Shown here: in pieces, positions 40,188 through 50,390 of the stretch
Position numbering within the stretch: the stretch's first letter is position 1
How the letters are laid out: every line of letters starts with the position of its first letter
Assembly (NCBI GenBank): GCA_016875635.1
Contig: VGPD01000011.1
Location: 1 to 53,284, forward strand
Reading direction: 5' to 3'
From: Chloroflexota bacterium
Lineage (GTDB): Bacteria > Chloroflexota > Dehalococcoidia > UBA2979
Length of the DNA stretch: 53,284 nt
The notes under the pieces: model-generated
What the model saw: only the letters and a program-made list of their open reading frames with translations
Database searches by the model: none
Told to the model about the DNA's origin: nothing
Position numbers and translations under genes: made by a program

Positions 40188-40235
40188 GCCGGCCTGTCGA
40201 GGCAGATGGCCTCGACCGATGGACGGATTCGTCGT

Positions 40236-40643
40236 CTAGGACGGACGCCGCAGGTCGATCTCCCCCGACGGAAACCGCCGGTCCAGCGAGTAGACGACGG
40301 TGTCCTGTCCGGCCGCGCGGGCCGCGGCCCACACGAGTGCGTCGGGGAACGAGACGCGGCCCGACGGACGGACAAGCGCCAGTGCCTCGACGACCACGTC
40401 GACCGGCAGGCCCTCTACCGTCACGTTCTCCCGGGTCACGAGGTCAGAGAGTGCGTCGACGACGTCGGTCCTCCCCATCAGGTAGCGGGAGGTCAGTACG
40501 AAGGCCGTTTCGGCCAGCACCACCGGCAAGAGCGTCAACACCTCGGTGCCATCCTCGATGAGGGCTCGAGCGCTCGCGGCCAGCGCAGGCGGTTCCCCCG
40601 TGAGGTATCGCACCACAACGGAGGTGTCCAGGAACGAGGTCAC
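40236..40643 (-). CDS. PIN-domain toxin
   Basis: A 135-residue PIN nuclease. The acidic site is complete: D6 (FLDTSVVVR), E45 (VVLAETAFVL), D101 (SFPDALVWA) and D121 (SLDRRF). PIN toxins are Mg-dependent RNases that cut tRNA or rRNA. GTG 40643 overlaps the stop of the AbrB-type antitoxin (GTGA), giving a two-gene module. It is convergent with the lipoprotein gene. Confidence 0.88.
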   Translation of the reverse strand: MTSFLDTSVVVRYLTGEPPALAASARALIEDGTEVLTLLPVVLAETAFVLTSRYLMGRTDVVDALSDLVTRENVTVEGLPVDVVVEALALVRPSGRVSFPDALVWAAARAAGQDTVVYSLDRRFPSGEIDLRRPS

Positions 40644-40927
40644 GACTCGGCGGTCCCATCCGGCGGCTCACCGAATCGCTCGCGGACGTGGGCCTTCCAT
40701 GCCGCCTCTTTCGCTTCGTGAAAGGAGTCCTCGTCGTCCGGGATGGAGACTCCCGGAGCCGGCTTCAGGATCCCGTACAGCGACCGCTGGTGCCGGGGTG
40801 GCAGGAACGTGATCTCCACCTTCCCGTCCACCACCCGCTCGACCGCCATCGACCCCGGCACAATCCCGAGGCGATCCCGGATCTCTTTGCTGATGACGAC
40901 CTGGCCCTTCGGCCCGACCTTTGGCAC
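40640..40927 (-). CDS. AbrB/SpoVT-type antitoxin
   Basis: A 95-residue swapped-hairpin AbrB protein from GTG 40927 (GGAGGT 7 nt upstream). The DNA-binding part KVGPKGQVVISKEIRDRLGI PGSMAV is canonical. The C-terminal half (LYGILKPAPGVSIPDDE, then an amphipathic WKAHVRERFGE helix) should wrap the toxin. It is translationally coupled to the PIN gene and faces a promoter/operator region at 40953-41008. Confidence 0.88.
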   Translation of the reverse strand: MPKVGPKGQVVISKEIRDRLGIVPGSMAVERVVDGKVEITFLPPRHQRSLYGILKPAPGVSIPDDEDSFHEAKEAAWKAHVRERFGEPPDGTAES

Positions 40928-40928
40928 G

Positions 40929-41008
40929 GTATGACCTCCGCACGGAAGTAAGACTCTGGTGCTCAGTATAATCACAGAGTGAAGTCCAACTCTGATGAGC
41001 GGTCATAC
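40929..41008 (-). promoter_or_regulatory. repeat-rich promoter/operator of the AbrB-PIN module
   Basis: On the plus strand three half-sites occur: ACTCTG (40953-40958), CAGAGT (40975-40980) and ACTCTG (40989-40994); the last two form an inverted repeat with an 8-bp spacer. TATACT (minus strand 40970-40965) is a -10 between them. An outer inverted repeat, GTATGACC (40929-40936) and GGTCATAC (41001-41008), brackets the region. This fits autoregulation by the antitoxin. Confidence 0.55.
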
Positions 41009-41016
41009 AATGCGGC

Positions 41017-41751
41017 TTATGCCCCGGTAGACGTGTCGTTATGTCTCTCGCTCCCCCACCGGCCGCGCCCGGTTGAGGTCGAGCTCCACCCCTGCCACCT
41101 CATCGGCAGCACCGGATCCGGCCACGCCGGATCGGGACGCCAGGTGGCCCGCGAACCATCGAAGGGGTGGGCGCGGGACTCGATGGCGGCGATGAGGCGT
41201 TCGGCCTCCGCGTGGAAGAGCGCGGACTCCCACTCGTACGTGAGGCCGGAGGCGACGGCTGCCGCCAGTTGCTCGACGTCTTTGCGTGACCACTCGAGGG
41301 TCGGGGGCATGACGAGGTCGAGGTGGTTGTCGGTGGTATCGATGCCGATCGGGGTGCGGATGTAGCGCGATTGGATGTTCACCTTGTAGCCGCGCAGATG
41401 GCCCTCGGACGCCTGCCACTGCGGGCTGCGAGAACCATCGAGGCCTGCGTAGTGGACCTCGACGGCGTGCTCGGCGTCGTTCGGGAGGATCCGCAGGGGC
41501 GGGGCGCGCGGCGTGTACGTTGGCGGCAGGACGCCCTCGTTCCCCAACTGGCCGAGGGGGATCGCGGCGGCACGGAGGTTCACCTCTGTGAAGCGGCGGT
41601 TCTCGACCGTGACGCCGGCAGGCTGGAATAGGACGAGGTGCGCTTCGGAGTCCTCGACCACGATCTGTGGCCAGCCTTGCGCGATGCCGTCATCGTGCCC
41701 CACGAAGCGTAGCACGATCGTGTCGCCGGAAGACCATCGAGCGTTGGCCAT
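41017..41751 (-). CDS. DUF402 / FomD-like domain protein
   Basis: A 244-residue protein from ATG 41751, which has a GGAGGCGG site. The N-terminal part GDTIVLRFVGHDDG and VVEDSEAHLVLFQPAGV, and the C-terminal block YIRTPIGIDTTDNHLDLVM, EWSRKDVEQLAAAV, AEAERLIAAIESRAHPFDG and WRPDPAWP are the DUF402 pattern; members include phosphohydrolases such as FomD. Catalytic residues were not checked. It follows the HTH antitoxin at a 24-bp gap and may be co-transcribed. Confidence 0.75.
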   Translation of the reverse strand: MANARWSSGDTIVLRFVGHDDGIAQGWPQIVVEDSEAHLVLFQPAGVTVENRRFTEVNLRAAAIPLGQLGNEGVLPPTYTPRAPPLRILPNDAEHAVEVHYAGLDGSRSPQWQASEGHLRGYKVNIQSRYIRTPIGIDTTDNHLDLVMPPTLEWSRKDVEQLAAAVASGLTYEWESALFHAEAERLIAAIESRAHPFDGSRATWRPDPAWPDPVLPMRWQGWSSTSTGRGRWGSERHNDTSTGA

Positions 41752-41775: not shown

Positions 41776-42102
41776 CTACGCGACGTCGCGTGGATGGATA
41801 TCGAGTGTCACCGTCCGATCCGCGAATCGCGCGGAGAGCTCGAGGTGTCCACCGAGCGCCTCGATATACTGGCGCAGCGTGGAGAGCCGCATGTCGTCGG
41901 AGTGTTCGAACTTCGACACAGCCGCCTGCGTGATGTCGAGCCTGGCGGCAAGGTCTGTCTGCGAGACATCCTGCGACCGGCGAAGTTCGAAGAGCCCGAC
42001 CTCGGCGAGGGCCTCCTCACGAAGGGCTGCAACGCGCTCCTTCGCACCGGGGCGGGCGATCACTTGCTCATGGAGCGAGCGGTAGGGCCTGGTCTTCGGC
42101 AT
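41776..42102 (-). CDS. HigA/XRE-type helix-turn-helix antitoxin
   Basis: A 108-residue protein. The HTH is VSQTDLAARLDITQAAVSKFE (about residues 46-66), followed by STLRQYIEALGG and a short beta C-terminus (LELSARF, VTLDIHPRD). It starts at ATG 42102, 4 nt after the toxin stop, with GGGGAG upstream. The toxin-first order is typical for HigBA-like modules. Confidence 0.85.
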   Translation of the reverse strand: MPKTRPYRSLHEQVIARPGAKERVAALREEALAEVGLFELRRSQDVSQTDLAARLDITQAAVSKFEHSDDMRLSTLRQYIEALGGHLELSARFADRTVTLDIHPRDVA

Positions 42103-42106
42103 CGTG

Positions 42107-42460
42107 TTACTCCCCTCGTTCCAGAGCGGCGAGATGTTCATCCATGAGTTCGTCCGCGATCGGGACAGCGATGCGATACCACTCATCCCACTGACCGGTC
42201 TTGTTCCCACCGATGAGGAGAATCGCCGCGCGTCGGGGATCGAAGGCAAAGAGCACACGGAGGGCGCCATCGCTCGAAGCCCGCAACTCCTTCATGTTGG
42301 GATGCCTGGACGAGGCGACCACATCAACCAGAGGACGGCCGAGCGCCGGACCGGCTTCCGCGAGCAATGAGACGCGCGCGTCGAGGGCTTCCTGCTGTGC
42401 CACGGAGATCACTTCCCACCACACTTCGAACTGTTCCGTGAACTCGACTTCCCAGGCCAA
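42107..42460 (-). CDS. RelE/HigB-like toxin (phage Gp49-like)
   Basis: A 117-residue mRNA-interferase-like protein. EVEFTEQFEVWWE, GRPLVDVVASSRHPNMKELRA, LRVLFAFDPRRAAILLIGGNKTGQW and WYRIAVPIADELMDEHL correspond to the Gp49-like toxin pattern. TTG 42460 was taken as start because GAGGT lies 6 nt upstream. First gene of the module. Confidence 0.87.
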   Translation of the reverse strand: MAWEVEFTEQFEVWWEVISVAQQEALDARVSLLAEAGPALGRPLVDVVASSRHPNMKELRASSDGALRVLFAFDPRRAAILLIGGNKTGQWDEWYRIAVPIADELMDEHLAALERGE

Positions 42461-44985: not shown

Positions 44986-46032
44986 TTAGAACTGTGACAG
45001 GAAGCGGAGGTCGTTCGCGTGGAGGTCGCGGATGTCGGTGATGCCGAACTTCAGCATCGTGATCCGCTCGACGCCCATGCCGGCGGCGAAGCCGGTGTAG
45101 CGCGCCGGGTCGTACCCCGCGGCGGCGATGATCTCCGGGTGGACCATCCCCGCGCCCATGATCTCCAGCCAGCCCGCGCCGCGACAGACCGGGCACGCGG
45201 GGTTGTCGCCCGGGCAGGCGAAACAGTCGACGGCCAGCTCGACGCCCGGCTCGACGAAGGGGAAGTAGGAGTTGCGCATCAGCACGCGCCGCTCCGGCCC
45301 GAACATCTGCCGCGCGAACTCCTGCAGCGTCCCCTTGAGGTTCGCGAGGCTCAGCCCCTCATCGATCGCGAGGAGTTCCACCTGCTCCAGCATCCACTCG
45401 TGCGTGGCGTCGGTCGCCTCGTAGCGGTAGCAGCGCCCCGGCACCGCGACGCGGATCGGCGGCTCGTGGGTGTCGATGTGCCTGATCTGCATCGGGCTGG
45501 TGTGGGTGCGGAGGAGGAGCGGCTGGCGGCCGTCGACCTCTTCGTCCAGCCAGAAGGTGTCCCACATGTCGCGCGCGGGGTGGTGCTCCGGGATGCGCAG
45601 CCGCCCGAAGTTGTACTCGTCCAGCTCGACCTCGGGCCCCTCCACCGTGGCGAAGCCGAGACGCGCGAAGATGTCGAGGATCTCCCGCCGCACCTGGGTC
45701 ACCGGGTGCAGCCGGCCACGGCGCAGTGGCCGGCCCGGCAGCGTGACGTCGAGGGCGTCCGCCGCCGACGCCGCGAGCGAGGCGGCCTTTTGGCTCTCGC
45801 GGAGCCGGGCTAGCGCTGCTTCCAGGGACAGCTTCAGAACATTGGCGGCGGCCCCCACGGACTTCCGCTCCTCGGGCGGAAGGGTCCCCAGCCCGCGCAG
45901 GATTACCGTGAGCCTGCCGTTCTTCCCGAAGACACCGTTCTGCCAAGTGACGAGGACGGCTTCACTTGCCGGGGCGGCGAGTAACGCCCGCGCTTCGGCC
46001 TCAATGGCGGCAATCTGCTCGATGGCGTTCAT
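44986..46032 (-). CDS. pheS: phenylalanyl-tRNA synthetase alpha subunit
   Basis: A 348-residue catalytic subunit. After an N-terminal coiled coil, class II motifs 2 and 3 are clear: HTHTSPMQIRHI to RVAVPGRCYRYEATDATHEWMLEQVE, and TGFAAGMGVERITMLKFGITDIRDLH. CFACPGDNPACPVC is a four-Cys knuckle (C-x2-C-x6-C-x2-C) that many PheS proteins carry. ATG 46032. The pheST pair makes the active (alpha-beta)2 enzyme. Confidence 0.97.
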   Translation of the reverse strand: MNAIEQIAAIEAEARALLAAPASEAVLVTWQNGVFGKNGRLTVILRGLGTLPPEERKSVGAAANVLKLSLEAALARLRESQKAASLAASAADALDVTLPGRPLRRGRLHPVTQVRREILDIFARLGFATVEGPEVELDEYNFGRLRIPEHHPARDMWDTFWLDEEVDGRQPLLLRTHTSPMQIRHIDTHEPPIRVAVPGRCYRYEATDATHEWMLEQVELLAIDEGLSLANLKGTLQEFARQMFGPERRVLMRNSYFPFVEPGVELAVDCFACPGDNPACPVCRGAGWLEIMGAGMVHPEIIAAAGYDPARYTGFAAGMGVERITMLKFGITDIRDLHANDLRFLSQF

Positions 46033-46073
46033 GAGACGGAAGTTTAGCGGGGGCGGCGGTTAGGGGGATTACG

Positions 46074-46079
46074 TATAAT
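46074..46079 (+). promoter_or_regulatory. -10 element (TATAAT) of a leaderless gene
   Basis: A consensus TATAAT ends 6 bp before the ATG at 46086, so transcription would start at or next to the start codon. No Shine-Dalgarno sequence precedes the ATG. A recognisable -35 is not seen. Confidence 0.65.
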
Positions 46080-46085
46080 CGGATC

Positions 46086-47513
46086 ATGCGAGTATCCGGT
46101 TACTTCAATCTCGCCCGTACCCAACCCGAACTCGACTTCGTGGACGTAGATGTGGCAACTGACATCCCGGTCTTCGTTGACCATCGCGCCCTCCTGCTTC
46201 TGGACAGCGACTGGTCCGACGAATGTCAGCACCTGATTCAGAACTTCTTCCATGAGGTGCTGGCAGCGGCGAAGAACAGGAACCGCTCCCGTGGCCTCCA
46301 GTTGTTGACCGTGTTGAGGGAACCTAACGAAACGCATCTGGGGTTCTCGCACGGTCGGCCGCGCGGCCGGGGCTTGGGGCCAGAGTCGGCGAAGGATATC
46401 TGGGAGGCGCTCGCGCGCAGTCAGGCTGTGGCCAGCGGACTGCTACAGGATCTCGAAGACACGATCTTGACCACCGAGGGCGTGGGTCCTGATCTGATTT
46501 CGGACATTGCAACTAAGGTCATTCGTGCGCCTCTTCTTCGGTACACACAGAGCATGGCGGAGTACTACGGCATCGCACTAACGAAAGGAGTCAACTCTGG
46601 GGCGGTCTGGAACCCAGTCACAACCACGTGGGACGCGTTCTTCACCGAAATGCCAATCGTCGACGGAGCGCCGCTACTCCTTGTCCCCAAGTCAATTGTT
46701 CGCCGGCGCATGGACTTCGACCTGGACGAGTATTACGACCACTACCTGCTTGAGGAGCTGCAACAGTTGGAACTGGCAGATCCTGCGTCAGGCTTGGTCA
46801 CTGTCCTCAAGAAGGGTCGCCGCGTCGTCTATAAGAAGGATCTCGTCAGTCGGTATGGCCGAGGTAAGCATGCAGTTGTGGAACTCACACTCCAACATCC
46901 GTCTGTGCTGACTCGTTACCGAGCGGCGAAAGCCCGGCCGCGGCCAGCCATCGACAGCCTCTCGTTCGCCGAGATCAGCGGAACTCCGGCCCCTCAGTGG
47001 GACGACCTGCTGGCGGACATCAAGAAGATTCCGCCCGGAGCCGATGGTGCGACAGAGTTTCATCGTGCAGTCGAGCGACTAATCTCAACGGTGTTCAGTA
47101 GCGTTCTGACGTTTCCTCAGATCGAACGACACATCCACGGAGGCCGTAAGCGCATTGACATCTCGTACACGAACGTGGCGGGACGTGGGTTCTTCGCGTG
47201 GCTTCGCGCCAACCACCCCGCATCGAACATCTTCGTCGAATGTAAGAACTACTCATCTGATCCCAAGAACCCCGAGCTGGATCAGATCGCCGGGCGTTTC
47301 TCTCCAAGTCGTGGAAAATTCGGGATCGTTGTCTGCCGGAAGGTCGAGGATCGCGAGAAGGTCACAGCCATCTGTAGAGATCACGCACAGGATGATCACG
47401 GCTTCATCTTGGTTTTGGACGACGACGATCTCGCCACGCTGGTCGAGTCTGCGCGGTCAGGTACAGATAGCTTCCAGTGGCTGAAGTCGAGGTTCGATGA
47501 GCTCGTCATGTAG
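46086..47513 (+). CDS. PD-(D/E)XK nuclease-like protein of unknown system (probably horizontally acquired)
   Basis: A 475-residue protein. The C-terminal 150 residues read GRKRIDISYTN (D358), a variable loop and NIFVECKNYSSD (E385-x-K387), the D-(E)xK core of a restriction-like nuclease, with a helix before it (E324/E330). The N-terminal 300 residues form a separate helical domain with PLLLVPKSIVRRRMDFDLDEYYDHYLLEEL; no family was recognised. It is richer in Asn, Ile and Lys and clearly lower in GC than its neighbours. It is divergent from pheS. A DNA or RNA nuclease in a defence role is plausible, but no partner such as a methylase or helicase is seen. Confidence 0.75.
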   Translation: MRVSGYFNLARTQPELDFVDVDVATDIPVFVDHRALLLLDSDWSDECQHLIQNFFHEVLAAAKNRNRSRGLQLLTVLREPNETHLGFSHGRPRGRGLGPESAKDIWEALARSQAVASGLLQDLEDTILTTEGVGPDLISDIATKVIRAPLLRYTQSMAEYYGIALTKGVNSGAVWNPVTTTWDAFFTEMPIVDGAPLLLVPKSIVRRRMDFDLDEYYDHYLLEELQQLELADPASGLVTVLKKGRRVVYKKDLVSRYGRGKHAVVELTLQHPSVLTRYRAAKARPRPAIDSLSFAEISGTPAPQWDDLLADIKKIPPGADGATEFHRAVERLISTVFSSVLTFPQIERHIHGGRKRIDISYTNVAGRGFFAWLRANHPASNIFVECKNYSSDPKNPELDQIAGRFSPSRGKFGIVVCRKVEDREKVTAICRDHAQDDHGFILVLDDDDLATLVESARSGTDSFQWLKSRFDELVM

Positions 47514-47529
47514 CGTTGCGACCTCAGGC

Positions 47530-47535
47530 TAGACT
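47530..47535 (+). promoter_or_regulatory. -10 element of the RAM-domain gene (leaderless)
   Basis: TAGACT lies 6 bp before the ATG at 47542 and no ribosome-binding site is present, as with the neighbouring gene. No convincing -35. Confidence 0.45.
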
Positions 47536-47541
47536 CCTCGC

Positions 47542-47793
47542 ATGCCAATCCGAGGCTACGTACTTGTCGAGACCGGAGTCGGGCACACCCGAGCGGTGGC
47601 CGACGCCATGCGCGCCGTCCGCTCGCGGAACGCCTCGATCATCGGGGTGGACACCGTCACCGGGCCGTACGACGTCATCGTGACCCTGGAAGCCGAGGAC
47701 CTGAACCGGCTGGGGAAGGCGATCACGGAAGAGATCGCGACGGTGGCGGGCGTCTCGCGCACCACGACCTGCCTGAGCGTGGATCTGTCATGA
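47542..47793 (+). CDS. stand-alone Lrp/AsnC ligand-binding (RAM) domain protein
   Basis: An 83-residue protein. GYVLVETGVGHTRAVADAM, GVDTVTGPYDVIVTLEAED and VAGVSRTTTCL correspond to the RAM/ACT-like fold of Lrp/AsnC regulators, without the HTH. Such proteins bind amino acids and oligomerise; they may modulate full-length Lrp or act in metabolite sensing. ATG 47542. The last codons overlap the next ORF (ATGA). Confidence 0.87.
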   Translation: MPIRGYVLVETGVGHTRAVADAMRAVRSRNASIIGVDTVTGPYDVIVTLEAEDLNRLGKAITEEIATVAGVSRTTTCLSVDLS

Positions 47794-47945
47794 AGCAAGA
47801 ATCATCCCAGCCGACACCGCCCCCGAGCGGGTTCCTCGCTCGGTTCGGGACGGTCACGCCGCTGAATCGCCCCGAGGACTGGGCGGCCATCCGGCGGGCA
47901 GTCGCCAGAGCAGTAGGTCTGCGTGCCGCTGAGAGGGGTCAGTAG
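47790..47945 (+). CDS. 51-residue ORF resembling an antitoxin C-terminal tail
   Basis: A short frame coupled to the RAM gene by ATGA: MKQESSQPTPPPSGF, then LARFGTVTPLNRPEDWAAI and RRAVARAVGLRAAERGQ. The 'FGTVTPLNRPEDWAAIRRA' stretch looks like the toxin-binding tail of AbrB/MazE-type antitoxins as remembered; there is no DNA-binding domain. It might be a free toxin-neutralising peptide or a truncated remnant. Confidence 0.5.
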   Translation: MKQESSQPTPPPSGFLARFGTVTPLNRPEDWAAIRRAVARAVGLRAAERGQ

Positions 47946-48034
47946 CCCGCCCCGCCCGGCTCGCGCACCACGACTTGCTCGCTGGCTTTGTCGTAGCCCT
48001 CGGCGTCTGAACTGGCGAGGCCCCGGACGATGTG

Positions 48035-48044
48035 CTACATGTAG
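48035..48044 (+). promoter_or_regulatory. palindromic operator of the Phd/VapC module
   Basis: CTACATGTAG, a perfect 10-bp palindrome ending 4 bp before the antitoxin ATG, is of the kind bound by Phd/YefM antitoxins (TGTA/TACA cores). The antitoxin gene has no ribosome-binding site between this element and its start. Confidence 0.55.
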
Positions 48045-48048
48045 ACAC

Positions 48049-48342
48049 ATGGCCATCCGCATCGGCATCCGCGAACTGCGGCAGAACGCCAGCCTCTACC
48101 TCCGGCGCGTCCGCGCGGGCGAGACGATCACGCTGACCGACCGTGGCGAGGCGTTCGCGGAGATCCGACCAATCAGGCAGGCGGGTGGCATCCTCGACCG
48201 GCTGGTCGCGGAGGGACGTGCGCGGCTGCCCGAGGCCGACCTGGCCGCGTTTCTCGCGCAGCCGCTGCCGCCCCCCTCGAAGCGGGGCAAGCGTGCACTG
48301 AGCGATGAGGTCATCAGGGCGCGGGCGGACGAGCGGTTCTAG
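48049..48342 (+). CDS. Phd/YefM-type antitoxin
   Basis: A 97-residue protein. MAIRIGIRELRQNASLYLRRVRAGETITLTDRGEAFAEIRPI is the classical Phd/YefM N-terminal DNA-binding fold; the rest is a polar helix-rich tail (LVAEGRARLPEADLAAFL) for toxin contact. ATG 48049 is preferred over longer frames. The toxin follows directly after the stop. Confidence 0.92.
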   Translation: MAIRIGIRELRQNASLYLRRVRAGETITLTDRGEAFAEIRPIRQAGGILDRLVAEGRARLPEADLAAFLAQPLPPPSKRGKRALSDEVIRARADERF

Positions 48343-48729
48343 GTGCTCTACGCCGACACCTCGGCGCTTGTGAAACTGGTGTTGACGGAGCCCGAATCCG
48401 CCGCCCTCCTCGCGTACCTCGACGGTCGAGGCGACGTCGTGACATCGGCGCTGGTCACCACCGAACTCGTCCGCGCGGTGCGACGCCTGCAGCCCGACCT
48501 CGAGCCTCGCGCACACGCACTGATCGCCGGGCTGACTCGGATCGAGGTCGACCGCGAGGTGCTGACCACTGCGGCAGGACTGTCACCTTCCGAGATGCGC
48601 TCACTCGATGCGATCCACCTCGCGACCGCCCTCACGCTCGGCGCCGAACTCGACGCGCTCGTCACGTACGACGTCCGCATGGCCGAAGCCGCCCGCGCGG
48701 CGGGCCTGCGCGTGGAGGCGCCGGCGTAG
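48343..48729 (+). CDS. VapC-type PIN toxin
   Basis: A 128-residue PIN nuclease with D5 (YADTSALVKL), E41 (VTTELVRAV), D89 (SLDAIHLATAL) and D110 (VTYDVRM). GTG 48343 abuts the antitoxin stop. Type II toxin, RNase activity expected. Confidence 0.93.
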   Translation: MLYADTSALVKLVLTEPESAALLAYLDGRGDVVTSALVTTELVRAVRRLQPDLEPRAHALIAGLTRIEVDREVLTTAAGLSPSEMRSLDAIHLATALTLGAELDALVTYDVRMAEAARAAGLRVEAPA

Positions 48730-48815
48730 CGCAGACGCCGCACACGACGTGCCACCATCGGCCTCCTCGTACGGTTACCGAGACAACGACTAGCCTGACT
48801 CCGGGAGCGTGCACC

Positions 48816-50297
48816 GTGAGCGATGGTTCGAACGATGGTCGACATGTCCTGGTCCTCGGCGCGAGCGGCTACGTCGGCTCGCACCTCGTCCCCCGGCTGA
48901 TCGAGCGGGGGTTCCGCGTCCGTGCCTCCGCGCGGGACGCCGAGGTGCTGGCGGCGCGCGGCTGGGGCTGCGAGGTGGTCGCGGCCGACGCGCTGCGGCC
49001 GGAGACGCTCGCGTCCGCCCTCGAGGACATCGACGTCGCGTACTACCTCGTGCACTCGATGGCCGCCGGGCGGGACTTCGCCGAACGGGACCGCCGCGCG
49101 GCCGACAACTTCCGCAAGGCCGCCGAGGCCGCCGGGGTGCGGCGGATCATCTACCTCGGCGGGCTGCAGGCGGAGGGCGAGGCGTCGGAGCACCTCGCCT
49201 CGCGGCGCGAGACCGGCGAGCACCTGCGCGCCGGCCCGATCCCGGTGACCGAACTGCGCGCGGGGATCATCGTCGGCGCCGGCTCCGCCGCCTTCGAGGT
49301 GATCCGCGACCTCGTCTTCCACCTCCCGGTGATGACGACGCCGCGTTGGGTGCGCTCGCGCACGCAGCCGATCGCCCTCGACGACCTGGTCGAGTACCTC
49401 GTGCGCCTGCCCGACGTAGAGGAGAGCGCCGGGCGCACCTTCGACGTCGCGGGGTCGGAGACGCTCTCCTACGCCGACCTGATGCGGACCTTCGCCCGCG
49501 TGGTGGGACGCCGCATCCGCATCCTGCCGCTGCCCGTGCTGACACCGCGACTCTCCTCGTACTGGCTGGACCTCGTCACCTCGGTGCCTGCGAACGTCGC
49601 CCGCCCGCTGATCGACGGCCTGCGGCAAGACCTGCTCGCCGACGACGCGGTGATCCGGACGCTGATCCCGATCCCGCTGCGCGGCTACGAGGACGCCGTG
49701 CGCGCCGCGCTCGATGCGGAGGCGAACGACGCCGTCACCGCGCGCTGGGCGGAGGGATCGCTGGTGCTCCGCCGCTACCGTCGCGACGTCGCGTTCTACA
49801 GCAAGCGGGCGACGGCCCATGCCGAGGCGCGGGCCTCCTCGGAGCGGCTGTGGACGGCGGTCGCCGCGGTCGGCGGAGCGCGCGGCTGGTACTACCTCGA
49901 CTGGCTGTGGGAGCTGCGCGGCCTGCTCGATCGGCTGATCGGCGGCGTGGGGATGCGGCGCGGGCGGCGTCAGTCGCTCGCCGTCCGGGTGGGCGACGCG
50001 ATCGACTTCTGGCGGGTGGTTGGCGTCGAGCCCGGGAAGCGCCTCGTGCTGCTGGCGGAGATGAAACTGCCGGGGGCCGCCTCGCTCGACCTCGAGGTGG
50101 AGCCGATGGGGCCGGAGCGGTCGGCGCTGACGGTGACGGCGCGGTTCCACCCGGCGGGGGTGCTGGGTCTGCTGTACTGGTACGTCCTCTGGCCGGTCCA
50201 CGGCCGCCTCTTCCGGGGGATGGCCCGGGCGATCTGCGCGGCCGCCGAGGCCCCCGCCCCACCCTCGACGGCAGCCGGTCCGGCCGGCCGCGCCTAG
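48816..50297 (+). CDS. SDR/NAD(P)-binding epimerase-like protein with C-terminal DUF2867-like domain
   Basis: A 493-residue protein. The N-terminal Rossmann fold (VLVLGASGYVGSHLVPRLIERG) is an atypical SDR (YLVHSM, IIYLGGL, no clear Tyr-x3-Lys). Residues from about 330 on (VAFYSKRATAHAEARA, RGWYYLDWLWELRGLLDRLIGGVGMRRGRR, DFWRVVGVEPGKRLVLLAEM) match a START-like/DUF2867 domain. Such two-domain proteins (YlbE/UbiB-type neighbours) are common in high-GC bacteria; function not known. GTG 48816, GGGAG upstream. Confidence 0.8.
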   Translation: MSDGSNDGRHVLVLGASGYVGSHLVPRLIERGFRVRASARDAEVLAARGWGCEVVAADALRPETLASALEDIDVAYYLVHSMAAGRDFAERDRRAADNFRKAAEAAGVRRIIYLGGLQAEGEASEHLASRRETGEHLRAGPIPVTELRAGIIVGAGSAAFEVIRDLVFHLPVMTTPRWVRSRTQPIALDDLVEYLVRLPDVEESAGRTFDVAGSETLSYADLMRTFARVVGRRIRILPLPVLTPRLSSYWLDLVTSVPANVARPLIDGLRQDLLADDAVIRTLIPIPLRGYEDAVRAALDAEANDAVTARWAEGSLVLRRYRRDVAFYSKRATAHAEARASSERLWTAVAAVGGARGWYYLDWLWELRGLLDRLIGGVGMRRGRRQSLAVRVGDAIDFWRVVGVEPGKRLVLLAEMKLPGAASLDLEVEPMGPERSALTVTARFHPAGVLGLLYWYVLWPVHGRLFRGMARAICAAAEAPAPPSTAAGPAGRA

Positions 50298-50390
50298 GAA
50301 CGGCCCGGGGAGCGCTTCGGGCGAGCGCGAGCCGAGGGCGTACTCTGTCCATAACGTTGGGGAACGCCCCCGAGCGAAGCGAGGTAGGCC

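Follow-up and report, generated by a model that had tools for sequence, protein, structure and literature searches.

The 475-aa protein encoded at positions 46086–47513 (plus strand) of the window, a 53,284-nt stretch of Dehalococcoidia (UBA2979) DNA, is by its profile matches a further member of an already catalogued candidate family, PDC-M36A / phrog_27295, and its gene occupies a variable slot between pheS and an AsnC-like gene. We consider it likely that this horizontally acquired gene has a defence function, and give a probability of about 0.6 to the narrower reading that it is a one-gene anti-phage effector of this family, acquired horizontally, in which an N-terminal module (N-module) serves as the sensor of a nuclease. 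The defence reading is based on the family matches, the nuclease fold with its triad, carriage by phages, defence genes as neighbours, the cargo of the slot and the sporadic distribution. The absence of the second PDC-M36 gene, M36B, and a non-defence cargo in the slot were counted against the effector reading.

The PADLOC profile PDLC04597 (PDC-M36A) matched residues 2–455 over profile positions 7–432 of 457 (E 6.1e-33), and phrog_27295 matched end to end, residues 1–473 over profile positions 1–468 of 469 (E 4.4e-121). In PADLOC, PDC-M36 consists of M36A (PDLC04597 and PDLC04598) and M36B (PDLC04599 and PDLC04600). A guilt-by-embedding study (Payne et al. 2024, as cited in PMC12988326) put forward the PDCs as candidates, and they are largely unvalidated (PMC12988326); we found no publications naming PDC-M36 or phrog_27295. 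The Pfam search of the whole protein returned Mrr_cat (PF04471) alone, at 12.8 bits and below the gathering cut-off of 21, and searches of NCBIfam and the PDB gave no match. The original prediction had described a new N-terminal domain of no recognised family. The second part of this description holds for Pfam, NCBIfam and the PDB but not for PADLOC (PDC-M36A) or PHROGs (phrog_27295), and the newness of the domain is not supported, as it is part of both families and occurs alone on plasmids.

Like PDC-M36A, which it matches over nearly its whole length, the protein has an N-module and a nuclease-like C-terminus. However, no M36B gene adjoined it or was found elsewhere in the window's genome (assembly 90% complete), while the identical search was positive in two other genomes (G441 and G043) and M36B lies directly upstream of M36A in L053, a prophage-like contig, and in L075. 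The protein therefore belongs to the M36A family but, lacking the second gene, does not make up a complete PDC-M36 system. Members of phrog_27295 on phage contigs have the same architecture, but the copy studied here lies in a bacterial chromosome with no phage genes around it. No cognate methyltransferase, by which a classical restriction-modification system would be recognised, was seen among the neighbouring ORFs.

The C-terminal domain (residues 300–475, positions 46983–47510, plus strand) is predicted to be a PD-(D/E)XK nuclease. The residues named in the original prediction were found at their places, with D358 as the first acidic residue of the motif (codon at 47157–47159, plus strand) and E385-C386-K387 as the ExK motif (47238–47246, plus strand). 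R356, D358, E385, K387, N388 and Q400 were invariant across 11 aligned C-terminal domains, so the D358/E385/K387 pattern appears to be more than chance. A structure model from five sequences had a pLDDT of only 52, which did not suffice for the N-module, and the AlphaFold2 model used here was built from 12 sequences (mean pLDDT 85.2, pTM 0.84). The C-terminal order in this model was a helix, strands bearing D358 and the ExK motif, a helix, a strand, a helix and a strand (strands 341–346, 359–363, 381–387 and 412–417; helix 395–402), which is the alpha-beta core of PD-(D/E)XK enzymes. Foldseek searches of the PDB with the 12-sequence model ranked FokI, AspBHI (rank 2) and EcoT38I highest, with Cap4 lower in the list. 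The two leading hits had probabilities of 0.92 and 0.98; the best E-value was 1.5e-3, none being below 1e-3, and the TM-scores were low because the alignments cover just part of the protein. In BFVD, "restriction endonuclease" and Mrr-type proteins of phages and giant viruses matched with probability 1.00 (best E 3.2e-4). Over the two databases the Foldseek probabilities for restriction enzymes were 0.77–1.00. A PDB profile search with the domain gave chance hits only. A non-nuclease fold did not appear, and the model together with Foldseek supports the restriction-endonuclease-like C-terminus that had been predicted. Type IV / Mrr-like and MspJI-family enzymes (AspBHI, MspJI) share this core but differ in that Mrr_cat stays below its cut-off here and the N-module resembled no reader domain in the searches run. 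A Paenibacillus plasmid protein (L010, WP_338709056.1) has a homologous nuclease domain with the same triad but another N-terminal part.

The N-module (residues 1–286, positions 46086–46943, plus strand) was delimited by an alignment of 18 sequences, standalone copies included, and was modelled with pLDDT mostly at 80–95. Over its ~285 residues, D26, E79, G86, G94, D136, S139, D140, T154 and P201 were invariant. It had no match in Pfam, NCBIfam or the PDB, a PDB profile search with it gave chance hits only, and the Foldseek lists held nothing that would name it. Bacillus, Rhodococcus and Acinetobacter plasmids carry standalone N-module proteins of ~290–315 aa, as does a phage contig (L083), and on small plasmids such proteins stand next to toxin-antitoxin genes. 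In four proteins (L006, L011, L054 and L073, phrog_30194-type) a homologous N-module is joined to a second type of C-terminus, which differs from that of the 475-aa protein and by eye has its own D...ExK pattern. The alignments show the 475-aa protein to be built of two units, with the N-module inherited as a separate one. Phage contigs L054, L055, L073 and L074 carry the N-module with the second, phrog_30194-like C-terminus, and the L055 copy seems to be split into two frames. On L083 (1–2909), an AbiLi-like ATPase gene followed by the standalone N-module stands at the end of phage tail and lysis genes.

The distribution of the gene was sporadic. PDC-M36A matches were found in 3 of 201 Chloroflexota genomes, and the gene was present in one of 44 genomes of the family and one of five of the genus, several of these genomes being incomplete. 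A profile built from ten relatives matched 11 of 400 genomes, seven with the N-module (G000, G384, G005, G043, G422, G441 and G468) and four (G033, G157, G424 and G244) with a nuclease-like stretch only. These four weak matches were not counted, since by eye they had the nuclease-like core alone in common. Housekeeping conservation across Chloroflexota, against which the original prediction was to be judged, was not seen, and a housekeeping gene was rejected on this distribution. Full-length relatives came from a Chloroflexi MAG (L001, 51%), Verticiella (L002, 45%) and G384 (L059, 52%). Five more, with identities of 37–47%, lie on IMG/VR contigs (L082 and L084–L087), detected with a DNA pattern that encodes EPNETHLG. 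Of these, L085, L086 and L087 have genes for portal, capsid, terminase or integrase nearby, some of them named by sequence reading. There was no match to the protein among 50,697 named phage genomes.

The slot extends from 46065 to 47541, between pheS (44986–46032, minus strand) and a gene for an AsnC/Lrp ligand-binding domain (47542–47793, plus strand; Pfam AsnC_trans_reg, 4.8e-10), which are mostly divergent neighbours in the relatives. DNA identity to same-genus genomes was 88–92% over pheT-pheS and 84–94% over the AsnC-like gene. This homology stops at ~46040–46064, within ~32 bp upstream of pheS, and restarts at 47541–47542, at or one base before the AsnC-like start. Such a clean replacement between conserved flanks, together with the rarity of the gene in its genus and family, supports the earlier view that it was acquired.

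In other genomes the same slot holds unrelated genes. The cargoes include PDC-M34A with M34B (G516), a PDC-M34A-like gene with HEPN (G536), a CBASS-type cyclase with a CAP12 TIR (G281), with AAA/STAND (G512) or alone (G509), and a GajB-like helicase (G530). Cargoes without recognised identity are two ORFs in G518, a partial ORF in G517, the content of the G513 slot and a 676-aa protein in G531. G519 has a coiled-coil protein, and by-eye reading gave a sortase for G514 and an oxidoreductase for G315. The cargo of G235 is an MFS transporter, which is not a defence gene and counts against the defence reading. Eight genomes (G295, G528, G529, G505 and G520–G523) have a nearly empty slot with a gap of ~97–384 bp. 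Defence or candidate-defence models matched in 7 of the 15 occupied slots, the window included, and no integrase or transposase was seen in the slots read. We infer that cargoes are exchanged by homologous recombination through the conserved flanks. Other intergenic sites near the slot vary too, so an excess of exchange at pheS/AsnC over this background is not proven.

The slot cyclases of three sister-genus genomes (L043, 8024–10223; L111, 1055–3472; L113, 1713–2843) have different companions, namely a CAP12 TIR, an AAA/STAND ATPase and none seen. The pair in the same-genus genome G516 (L107, 1434–2632), PDC-M34A (DUF5343) and PDC-M34B (Swt1-like HEPN), has a GC content of about 0.55. Four cargoes (L108, 1427–3083; L109, 3239–4720; L112, 3942–4802; L115, 465–2492) had no PADLOC match, or a weak one in the case of L109, and are possibly unrecognised defence genes. 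Only tentatively do we propose the joint reading that the N-module is an unrecognised sensor or enzyme domain, which mobile elements use alone (on small plasmids and a phage) or with at least two nuclease C-termini, and that the pheS/AsnC junction is an integrase-free exchange slot for defence cassettes. Should the N-module prove to be a domain of either kind, this would account for a set of plasmid "hypothetical proteins" made up of nothing but the module.

Several further sites in the window were variable. A VapBC-like pair (40188–41026; AbrB/PIN genes at 40236–40975) is a clean small insertion, and the genes flanking it abut in the same-genus genome G519. Downstream of pheT there is an HTH and RelE/Gp49-like toxin-antitoxin pair (41776–42460), and the matching site in G516 holds about 1.9 kb of other sequence. 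The stretch with a PHD/PIN pair and an NmrA/DUF2867 gene (48066–48729 and 47790–50380) varies between same-genus genomes.

The 475-aa gene had a GC content of 0.580 and a GC3 of 0.689, compared with 0.696–0.744 and 0.92–0.95 for pheS, pheT and the NmrA-like gene, and the drop was confined to about 46.0–47.5 kb, centred on this gene; the base composition and codon use thus differ from those of the neighbours as had been noted. Its ATG is preceded by a -10-like box, TATAAT (46074–46079, plus strand), with a spacer of six bases (cggatc) and no Shine-Dalgarno-like stretch, as first described, and a consensus scan did not find a complete -35/-10 promoter. A leaderless start was taken from this layout, but it was rejected as a distinguishing mark. 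Within the window, TAAACT stands eight bases before the ATG of pheS and TAGACT six bases before that of the AsnC-like gene, and pheS of the relatives G281, G315 and G235 has TAAACT, TAGACT or TACACT six bases before its ATG. By heuristic gene calls and in small samples, -10-like boxes stood 5–8 nt before the start in 7 of 27 gene-like ORFs of the relatives' loci (control 7.4%) and in 3 of 25 ORFs of the window (control 2.7%). The literature also describes leaderless genes in Chloroflexi (PMC3160421). The leaderless start is the local norm in this lineage and host-like, and is therefore uninformative on a foreign origin of the gene.

Several members of the wider family lie beside defence genes. 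A type I methyltransferase, M36B, a broken M36A and a ThsB-like TIR stand together in L075, and type III R-M (L079), a type II methyltransferase (L077), AbiLi (L083) and BsuBI/PstI R-M (L121) adjoin other members. The earlier inference of an acquired, solitary nuclease-like gene as a candidate single-gene defence is supported by the slot, the fold and the family matches. In the mechanism we propose, the N-module would use its invariant acidic and polar residues to detect, or act on, something specific to infection, and this would license the metal-dependent nuclease. The predicted nuclease would then cut the DNA of the phage or, in abortive infection, that of the host, and so block a competing phage; phage-borne copies may exclude rival phages in the same way. 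The sensing step is guesswork, as the fold of the N-module matched nothing.

The structural matches also suit a modification-dependent, type IV-like restriction enzyme acting by itself, whose N-module would directly read a modified base or DNA structure and whose C-terminus would cut nearby, with no suicide of the cell. The best solved matches are restriction enzymes, including the modification-dependent AspBHI with the good model and MspJI at rank 1 with the poor one, viral Mrr-type proteins match in BFVD, and no methyltransferase adjoins the gene. However, it is probably the nuclease core that produces the restriction-enzyme matches, the N-module has no profile match to any solved structure, Mrr_cat scored under its gathering threshold, and standalone N-modules would lack a nuclease to direct. 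We regard this explanation as unlikely.

The standalone N-modules bear on two other explanations as well. A selfish gene of phage origin (for example a nuclease of the homing or competition type) that inserted next to pheS and the AsnC-like gene, between the two, and is useless to the cell would agree with phage copies that adjoin structural genes and with its lack in nearly all host relatives. Homing accounts for neither the N-modules that stand alone nor the second type of C-terminus, the reading frame is intact, the start is host-like, and in relatives the slot is occupied by unrelated defence genes; we regard a selfish gene as improbable. It is very improbable that the gene encodes a toxin-like or stress-response nuclease that stabilises plasmids and phages instead of giving anti-phage immunity. 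Standalone N-modules do adjoin toxin-antitoxin genes on small plasmids, and toxin-antitoxin-like modules lie near the gene in the window, but the gene itself has no adjoining antitoxin partner and several neighbours of the family are defence systems.

We still favour the reading of an anti-phage effector that belongs to PDC-M36A / phrog_27295. The analysis links an untested family of candidate defence genes with copies on phages and with a chromosomal slot in which known defence genes are swapped, which makes the 475-aa gene a good and cheap candidate for plaque assays.
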